Shown here in pieces: positions 53,254 to 55,811 of a stretch of 64,000 nucleotides of DNA; position 1 is the first letter of the stretch; each line of letters starts with the position of its first letter. Below the pieces are notes generated by a model that did not search any database, was not told where the DNA came from, and saw only the letters and a list, made by a program, of their open reading frames with translations. Made by a program: the position numbers and the translations under genes. This stretch comes from an uncultured Lachnospiraceae bacterium (GTDB lineage: Bacteria > Bacillota > Clostridia > Lachnospirales > Lachnospiraceae), in assembly GCA_905235745.1 (NCBI GenBank), contig CAJOMN010000010.1, positions 1 to 64,000 on the forward strand. The letters run 5' to 3'.

Positions 53254-55293
53254 ATGAGATCAGAATGGAATGGTTTCGTAGGCGGCAAGTGGGAGACGGA
53301 AGTCAATGTTCGTGACTTCATCCAGAAGAATTATACTCCGTATGACGGGGATGACTCTTTCCTTGCAGGACCTACACAGAACACAAAGGATCTGTGGCAG
53401 ATGGTGCTGGATCTTCAGAAGAAGGAAAGAGAGAACGGCGGCGTTCTTGATATGGATACAAAGGTTGTTTCCACTATCACATCACACGGTCCCGGATATC
53501 TGGACAAGAGCAAGGAAACTATCGTAGGTTTCCAGACAGACAAGCCTTTCAAGCGTTCACTCCAGCCTTACGGCGGGATCAGAATGGCAGAGAAGGCGTG
53601 CTCCGATAACGGATACGAAGTTGATCCCGAGATCAGCGAGTTCTTCTCAACACACCGCAAGACACACAACGCAGGGTGCTTTGATGCATACAATCAGGAG
53701 ATGAGAGCCTGCCGTACATCACATATCATCACAGGTCTTCCGGATGCATACGGAAGAGGCCGTATCATTGGCGATTACAGAAGAGTTGCTCTGTACGGTA
53801 TCGATTATCTTATCGAGGACAAGCAGGCCCAGAAGGATTCGACAGGACGTGTTATGACAGATGATGTTATCCGTCTTCGTGAAGAATTATCCGAGCAGAT
53901 GGTTGCTCTCAAGATGATGAAGGAAATGGCCGCTTCTTACGGATGCGATATTTCCAAGCCCGCCACAAACGTTCAGGAAGCTATCCAGGCTACATATTTC
54001 GGATACCTTTGCTCGGTTAAGGAGCAGAACGGTGCCGCGATGAGTCTCGGACGTACATCCACATTCATTGACTGCTATGCTGAGCGTGACCTTAAGAACG
54101 GAACATTTACCGAAGAGCAGATACAGGAATTTGTTGATCACTTTATCATGAAGCTGCGCTGTGTCAAGTTTGCACGTACACCCGAGTACAACCAGATCTT
54201 CGCAGGCGATCCCGTATGGGTAACGGAGTCTATCGGAGGTATCGGTGTTGACGGTCGTCATATGGTAACAAAGATGAGCTTCCGTTATCTGCATACTCTT
54301 GAGAATCTCGGACCGGCTCCCGAGCCGAACCTTACGGTTCTCTGGTCAACAAGACTTCCCCAGAACTTCAAGAAGTTCTGTGCCAAGACATCGATCAACA
54401 CATCATCGATCCAGTATGAGAACGATGATCTTATGAGACCTGTTCACGGTGATGACTATGGTATTGCATGCTGTGTATCGTCTATGGTAATCGGTAAAGA
54501 AATGCAGTTCTTCGGTGCCCGTGCCAACCTTGCAAAATGTCTTCTGTATGCTCTTAACGGCGGTGTCGATGAGAAGACCAAGAAGCAGGTAGGTCCCAAG
54601 TATCGTCCTTATGAAGGAGATGTTCTTGACTATGATAAGGTTATGGAACTGTTCGTGGATATGATGGAGTGGCAGGCTGATGTTTATGTTAATACTCTTA
54701 ACATCATCCACTACATGCATGATAAGTACTGCTATGAGAGAGCTGAGATGGCTCTTCACGACAGAGATGTCAAGAGATACTTTGCAACAGGTATCGCGGG
54801 TCTGTCTATCGTAGCCGATTCGTTCTCTGCAATGAAGTATGCGAAGGTTGAATGCATCAGGGATGAGGACGGAATCATCACAGACTTCAAGATCACAGGT
54901 GACTTCCCTAAATACGGTAATGATGATGACCGCGTGGATCTTATTGCCAAGGAAGTTGTCCATAAGTTCATGACAGCCGTAAGACGTCACCATACATACA
55001 GGAACGGTGTACCTACAACCTCGATCCTTACGATCACATCGAATGTTACATACGGTAAGGCAACAGGTAATACACCTGACGGACGCCGCGCAGGACAGCC
55101 GTTCGCACCCGGTGCCAACCCGATGCACGGTCGTGATACTCACGGTGCGATCGCTTCACTTTCATCTGTATCGAAGCTTCCGTTCAATGATGCACAGGAT
55201 GGTATCTCGAATACATTCACTATCATCCCCGGAGCTCTCGGTAAGGAAGATCAGGTATTTGCAGGCGATATAGAACTGGATCTGAACAAATAA
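53254..55293 (+). CDS. pflB: pyruvate formate-lyase core subunit, lacking the glycyl-radical domain
   Basis: Cleaves pyruvate with CoA to acetyl-CoA and formate. The 679-residue protein covers the whole PFL barrel: [20 protein letters not shown] at the pyruvate site, [24 protein letters not shown], the catalytic Cys406-Cys407 in [12 protein letters not shown], and [25 protein letters not shown] near the end. It stops at [36 protein letters not shown], where standard enzymes (about 740-760 residues) continue into the LLDGY...HLNVNV...RVSGYAV radical domain. The radical domain is encoded separately at 55569. The stop is clean with another ribosome site further on, so this is a real split. AGGAGG precedes ATG 53254. 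Codon use is that of a highly expressed gene. Confidence 0.93.
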
Positions 55294-55327
55294 TCCGGAA
55301 GGAAATCCCGGGTGCTTTATCCCGGAT
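55293..55327 (+). other. competing hairpins between pflB core and the small downstream genes
   Basis: ATCCGG (55293-55298) can pair with CCGGAT (55322-55327); alternatively ATC(C)CGGG (55305-55312) pairs with CCCGGAT (55321-55327) through a one-base bulge. The two exclude each other. They lie directly after the pflB stop and before the next AAAGGAGG, where they could set how much of the downstream message is made or kept. Confidence 0.4.
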
Positions 55328-55349
55328 AAGGAAAGGAGGCTTGACAACT

Positions 55350-55544
55350 ATGGATCAGGTTGATGATCTGGTAGCTTATCTTGACGGTTCTGTTGAAAGC
55401 GGGGTCGGACATTTGAACGTAGATGTTAACGATGCGCAGGAAGAGAGCAGAAGCACGGAAACAATGGGCTGTACCGACTGTTCCAGAACACCGCTTGCAT
55501 GCAGTGTCCCCACGCTTCATCAGGGCCTCGATGATTACAGATAG
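55350..55544 (+). CDS. partial glycyl-radical-domain homologue with cysteine tail
   Basis: A 64-residue protein from ATG 55350 (AAAGGAGG 10 nt upstream; an earlier TTG is too close). Its first 28 residues, MDQVDDLVAYLDGSVESGVG then HLNVDVND, match the start of the radical domain encoded just downstream ([19 protein letters not shown]). The glycyl loop (RVSGYAV) is absent. Instead there is a tail METMGCTDC-type segment (TETMGCTDCSRTPLACSVP) with three cysteines and ..HQGLDDYR at the end. It could be a decayed duplicate, but the ribosome site, intact frame and spacing look maintained. Possible roles: regulatory or inhibitory docking to the PFL barrel, or a redox sensor. I know no described counterpart. 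Confidence 0.65.
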   Translation: MDQVDDLVAYLDGSVESGVGHLNVDVNDAQEESRSTETMGCTDCSRTPLACSVPTLHQGLDDYR

Positions 55545-55568
55545 GAAAAATTTAAGGAGGAAAAAATT

Positions 55569-55811
55569 ATGGCAGCAAACAGTGCACAGGTTGATAATCT
55601 TGTTAATCTTTTAGACGGATATGCAACAAAAGGAGGACATCATCTTAATGTTAATGTACTTAACAGAGATACCCTTCTTGATGCCCAGGCGCATCCCGAG
55701 AACTATCCCCAGCTCACGATCCGTGTCAGCGGATATGCGGTAAACTTTATCAAGCTTACGCCGGAGCAGCAGGCAGACGTTATCTCGCGTACATTCCATG
55801 AAGCAATCTAA
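55569..55811 (+). CDS. grcA: autonomous glycyl radical subunit of pyruvate formate-lyase (GrcA/YfiD-like)
   Basis: An 80-residue protein that is the complete PFL C-terminal domain: [21 protein letters not shown], then [16 protein letters not shown] with radical Gly55, then [18 protein letters not shown]. In Escherichia coli, YfiD/GrcA is a spare part that restores oxygen-cut PFL. Here the main enzyme has no radical domain of its own, so this subunit must supply the radical for activity. Strong TTAAGGAGG ribosome site. Third gene of the pflB locus, followed by a terminator. It is about the size of the missing PFL end. Confidence 0.9.

Follow-up and report, generated by a model that had tools for sequence, protein, structure and literature searches.

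The pyruvate formate-lyase (PFL) of an uncultured Lachnospiraceae bacterium is encoded in separate pieces. The barrel with the catalytic cysteines and the subunit with the glycyl-radical loop are products of two genes, and a third gene located between them, designated here as mid, encodes a small protein with cysteines in its tail. We think it rather probable that this is an obligatory split PFL with a replaceable radical subunit, in which the mid protein docks on the barrel and a cysteine-pair tail serves the barrel when it is open. The locus is situated on contig CAJOMN010000010.1 (assembly GCA_905235745.1), from which positions 1 to 64,000 of the forward strand were analyzed (this whole stretch of 64,000 nucleotides is referred to as the window). 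The genome of this organism comprises 2.5 Mb in 32 contigs and is 99.46% complete. The locus possesses the following features:

52797..53003, minus strand: redox-disulfide CxxC protein (DUF1858 / TIGR03980), a divergent neighbor
53254..55293, plus strand: PFL barrel subunit, 679 aa, with Cys406/Cys407, without glycyl-radical loop and without Cys in the C-terminal tail
55350..55544, plus strand: mid, 64 aa, N-terminal half similar to the radical subunit, tail with three Cys, without glycine loop
55569..55811, plus strand: glycyl-radical subunit, 80 aa, with RVSGYAV and Gly55
55934..56461, plus strand: N-terminal part of pflA (PFL activase), frame broken near 56443
56382..56693, plus strand: open reading frame with the C-terminal part of pflA, in a different frame

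The separate barrel and radical subunit

The barrel reaches 1104.6 bits with TIGR01255 (cut-off 994.2) and covers positions 2-665 of the 744 positions of this model; its adjacent catalytic cysteines, Cys406 and Cys407, lie within IACCVSSM. The glycyl-radical loop is not part of this chain and is encoded by a separate gene, and the Pfam profile Gly_radical is split accordingly, the barrel matching its positions 1-51 and the small gene its positions 51-106. The radical subunit gene is preceded by an AGGAGG site, and its product passes the NCBIfam model NF038360 (GrcA3; 161.2 bits, cut-off 158). The terminator-like sites detected near 55300 belong to the minus strand, and no RNA element was found in 52900-57400 with Rfam at the gathering score. 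These data confirm the coordinates and the content given in an earlier note on this DNA, which had described a 679-residue PFL core with both catalytic cysteines that stops before the radical domain, followed by the complete radical domain as an 80-residue gene with its own ribosome site.

A search of the genome revealed a single PFL-like place, and the two Gly_radical places found correspond to the two halves of the split; no full-length PFL was found in this nearly complete genome. Furthermore, barrel, mid and radical subunit were detected by tblastn as separate parts at 19 of the 20 loci fetched from relatives (17 of these 19 loci with mid are from the same genus, 2 from other families). 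At the twentieth locus (L052 in genome G007) the radical subunit is present, and neither barrel nor mid is found in the 4.6 kb fetched. The pN/pS values are 0.03-0.07 for the barrel and 0.06-0.18 for the radical subunit. A frame error that joins the two is ruled out, as a conserved third gene fills the gap. One apparent fused chain, an 808-aa frame in G014, was rejected as well, for two stop codons separate its parts. Judged by these sequence comparisons, the split between barrel and radical subunit is real. With no full-length PFL found in the genome and a split that is shared by relatives, the radical must reside on a separate subunit, as the earlier note had argued; the note had further suggested that this piece could be renewed alone after contact with air, or that its amount could tune the activity. 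That note had proposed to look for a second, full-length PFL and to align the locus in relatives, and both searches came out in its favor. It had named a single-base correction between 55290 and 55570 and a continuous chain in relatives as findings that would speak against the split; the gap turned out to be a genuine gene, and the relatives' loci contain no joined chain.

The activase gene of the window is out of frame in the present assembly, with 8 bases missing in comparison to six aligned relatives, which the earlier note had not mentioned. Among the 20 stretches fetched from relatives, 14 contain pflA, and both halves are in one frame in all 14. No other place in the genome of the window organism reaches the PFLA cut-off. 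With its pflA frameshifted and no further place above this cut-off, the enzyme of this particular strain may not be activated. The frameshift would also fit the explanation that the small subunit is a mere spare part of the GrcA kind and that the real PFL of the organism is encoded elsewhere or was lost, as would the NCBIfam label of the subunit (autonomous cofactor GrcA3). We nevertheless regard this explanation as very improbable: the genome has no other PFL, the barrel is intact and constrained, and the same arrangement provides the only PFL1 match above cut-off in four named isolates, i.e., Kineothrix alysoides KNHs209, YSD2013, XBB2008 and 526-35 (the last has one further weak partial PFL1 match).

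The mid gene and the cysteine pair

The 275-nt gap between the barrel and radical subunit genes contains mid, which is absent from the earlier note. This gene has its own AGGAGG site, and its pN/pS is 0.10-0.15 in comparison to seven relatives and 0.29 in comparison to an eighth; by these values, mid is conserved and under purifying selection. The first ~25 residues resemble the N-terminus of the radical subunit (50-59% identity over 22-26 residues), and the start of the protein matches positions 3-30 of the GrcA3 model (E 1.5e-4). What follows is a novel tail; it contains three Cys (CTDC...AC) as well as the motif ACSVPTLHQGLDD and lacks the glycine loop. In G014, mid is located after the radical subunit (L049) and therefore is an independent unit. 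A search of the PDB for relatives of mid gave no credible one (one match, E 0.05). Relatives of mid are encoded by 530 stretches in GTDB r220; of these 530, the best 80 were fetched, and nearly all of these 80 bear the name Lachnospiraceae. At two loci (L185, L186), mid variants stop just past the CxxC (CTDC and CTTC, respectively) and lack the ACxxPTL part. A mid paralogue with two Cys in a different tail is located away from PFL in L249 (912-1154, plus strand), flanked by genes for a MarR-type regulator and a glyoxalase-family protein.

Split loci without mid mostly encode a barrel that ends in a tail with at least two Cys. The distribution of the two states was analyzed in 108 split loci (the window, further loci from its genus and from other orders, the sets fetched for the family and the class, and three named loci), from which the barrels of at least 550 aa were kept (n = 101); the seven short ones dropped comprise five with mid, one with a tail and one (G410) with neither. 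Among the 101 split barrels, 63 are accompanied by mid and have no Cys in the barrel tail, 35 have a barrel Cys pair and no mid, none has both, and 3 have neither. The window belongs to the first type, with three Cys in mid and none in the barrel tail, i.e., the pair is on one partner and not on both. As to the three exceptions, G509 and G609 additionally encode a full-length PFL, and G447 groups with the full-length enzymes. In two of the 63 cases (G062 and G190) mid is unlinked, and both barrels lack the Cys tail. Similarly, no Cys is present in the barrel tail at any of the 79 named mid loci that contain a barrel end (note that these loci were selected by mid).

Whole genomes (54) were searched with a broad mid profile as well. 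Mid was detected in the four genomes where it was expected (window, G062, G190, G407) and in none of the 36 tail-type genomes and 10 genomes with full-length PFL. The end of this profile also matches the barrel tails of five genomes (G152, G075, G078, G363, G556; E 5e-5 to 6e-3). The remaining matches are starts of radical subunits or PFLs, a weak stop-broken match in G117, and a second frame in G062 that weakly resembles mid.

The two kinds of tail share the motif C-x-(x)-P-(T/N), which is present in 21 of the 35 barrel tails as in mid. The cysteines are separated by 0 to 6 residues in barrel tails (most commonly C-x4-C, 13/35) and by 2 to 9 residues in most mids. At least two Cys are present in all 122 distinct mid tails, although this count is favored by the search profile, which itself contains the cysteines. 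As controls, the 92 residues around the glycine loop were inspected in 22 full-length PFLs, of which four have a Cys and one has two, at other positions; of 184 distinct radical subunits, five have one Cys.

A plain Fisher test for the mutual exclusion of mid and barrel tail gives 5e-24 if kinship is ignored. The mid/tail state changes 12 times on the best tree, and 5 to 6 of these changes are forced by supported branches. In six independent pairs on supported branches, a mean of 4.9 change in opposite directions, 0 the same way and 1.1 are undecided (median p 0.06). The complementarity of mid and barrel tail (63/35/0/3) points to a movable cysteine-pair module that accompanies the split, and since a similar tail forms the barrel C-terminus in sister lineages, the tail belongs to the split enzyme.

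Two other functions of mid or its tail have to be considered here. Mid could be a plug or inhibitor which fills the site of the radical subunit and either closes the empty barrel or limits the number of active protomers, its cysteines quenching a stray radical. The similarity of its start to the N-terminus of the radical subunit and the missing glycine loop are what one would expect of such a competitor. Still, tail-type barrels bear the cysteines without the competing N-terminal segment, and competition therefore is not the shared function. Furthermore, half-site reactivity, for which a filler might be of use, is doubted in vivo in the part of PMC12338860 available to us. We consider a plug unlikely. 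Quite unlikely, in our opinion, is also that the Cys tail has no redox role and instead binds a metal or Fe-S cluster or helps PflA or the radical subunit to dock. A motif that extends beyond the cysteines and is common to the tails would resemble a docking peptide, but docking needs no Cys, yet all the distinct mids retain at least two (the profile contains them, see above); the variable spacing, in turn, does not resemble that of a rigid metal site and suggests a flexible dithiol instead.

Distribution and origin of the split

Of 200 genomes drawn from the family (199 genera, one per genus), 157 had a PFL1 match. Among the matches listed (150 places, in 142 of the 157 genomes), 70 genomes have a split barrel and 75 a full-length enzyme, with both forms in three of them (G145, G179, G192). 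The split barrels of this draw end near model position 663-677, except for two that run through stops to 700 and 704. A class-wide draw (391 genomes) revealed splits in several further families (f35, f39, f42, f43, f74, f77, f91). In a phylum-wide draw, 103 of the 299 genomes had a PFL1 match; among the matches listed, the frames are at least 741 aa long, except for the window, G240 of the same family and short frames in G664, G831 and G835.

A FastTree phylogeny was calculated from 123 barrels. In it, 100 of the split barrels are united in a single supported group, separate from 22 full-length enzymes (support values are local SH-like only, and the full-length enzymes are a sample). The remaining split barrel, G447, is placed with the full-length enzymes. 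At its locus (L266) the barrel ends with ALGKDD, no more than about 25 nt separate it from the radical gene, and there is neither mid nor a Cys tail. The placement of G447 suggests a second, apparently independent split.

The neighborhood of the split loci was inspected as well. Where 900 nt or more of upstream sequence were available, the DUF1858 CxxC gene is present in 37 of 48 split loci (the window being counted twice; in L078 the gene lies downstream); it was found in 3 of 10 upstream stretches of tail-type loci and in 0 of 10 of full-length PFLs. A second radical subunit, not linked to the PFL locus, is encoded in nine genomes. Thioredoxin is the neighbor of two of these subunits (in one case along with rubrerythrin), and a Crp-type regulator that of three, among them one of the thioredoxin cases; those with thioredoxin, rubrerythrin or Crp-type neighbors (L250, L252, L253, L258) are possibly stress-linked spares. 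The other five, three beside spoIIIAA (L254, L255, L257) and two beside genes without an evident link, have neighbors with no obvious redox role. In L259 (G157), a second radical subunit is followed by its own pflA at the contig start, and the contig end may have truncated a second split PFL locus here. The thioredoxin and Crp-type neighbors, together with the DUF1858 gene, are circumstantial hints at a redox role, not proof of function.

Proposed mechanism and known systems

The split PFL would be assembled from separately translated parts, i.e., the barrel, which has the catalytic Cys pair, and the small subunit, which contributes the glycyl-radical loop together with the C-terminal helix. 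The small subunit probably supplies the last barrel strand as well, as has been proposed for E. coli GrcA. PflA would install the radical on the small subunit, and its transfer to the barrel cysteine would then occur between chains. To judge from its similarity to the radical subunit, the N-terminal segment of mid presumably docks on the barrel and brings along the Cys-pair tail. After cleavage by O2, the radical subunit would be shed and replaced, and until a new one docks the Cys pair may serve the open barrel by reducing or shielding the active-site cysteines; the tail is perhaps a redox arm.

A radical enzyme whose barrel bears a flexible pair of Cys at its C-terminus is class I ribonucleotide reductase. 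The likeness to the Cys-pair tail, in which C-x4-C is the most frequent spacing on barrels, is one of arrangement only, and PFL turnover itself requires no external dithiol. As a tentative extension, about which we are rather doubtful, the system could be a self-repairing glycyl radical enzyme: the split would have opened the active site and created the need for a mobile dithiol, and the tail would reduce oxidized catalytic cysteines in the manner of the ribonucleotide reductase arm. If so, the tail, be it of the barrel or of mid, would enter the open barrel while this lacks a radical subunit, and leave it once a fresh one has docked, with electrons coming from thioredoxin or the neighboring CxxC protein.

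The barrel resembles PflB (TIGR01255; E. coli 1H16) in exceeding the curated cut-off, in its Cys pair and in the adjoining pflA, but in the split enzyme the radical domain is a separate gene and a third protein with a Cys tail is present. The small subunit is homologous to GrcA/YfiD (E. coli, 6OWR; E 4.5e-24), likewise a stand-alone radical domain, and passes the GrcA3 cut-off. However, E. coli GrcA repairs a complete PFL, whereas here the sole PFL has no radical domain of its own; furthermore, E. coli GrcA has a disordered N-terminal half of 60 residues, according to the accessible part of PMC8683613, and the subunit described here has 80 aa in total. The same part of that paper contains the proposal that GrcA substitutes for the barrel strand lost after O2 cleavage. 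E. coli PflB-G734A forms formate with GrcA and none without it (PMC12338860, accessible part), i.e., a PFL barrel can make use of a radical domain supplied in trans. The split enzyme thus looks like the GrcA repair state of E. coli made permanent.

The best solved matches to the split barrels are two PDB chains annotated as 'Formate acetyltransferase', 38la_A (687 aa) and 38lb_A (739 aa). The radical subunit matches neither of them, 38lb has CDMC after its barrel, and 38la is possibly a truncated construct. A chain similar to mid was not found in the PDB. A search of the CC-licensed PMC literature revealed no paper on a split PFL, mid or the moving Cys tail, which is no proof of absence, and a split PFL is not described in the available parts of PMC8683613, PMC11528403, PMC12288474, PMC11574389, PMC12338860 and PMC13252398. 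With the GrcA3 model in NCBIfam and two PDB PFL chains without radical domain, the split has partly been recognized before; the novelty that the earlier note had claimed was overstated in this respect.

In many gut anaerobes, PFL feeds the central metabolism, and the enzyme is highly sensitive to O2. If the family draw is representative, about half of the Lachnospiraceae genera with PFL use a separate fragile subunit, nearly always together with the Cys-tail module. This would be a natural arrangement in which O2 damage, repair and the transfer of a glycyl radical between chains can be studied, and proteins annotated as GrcA3 may serve as essential subunits and not as spares.
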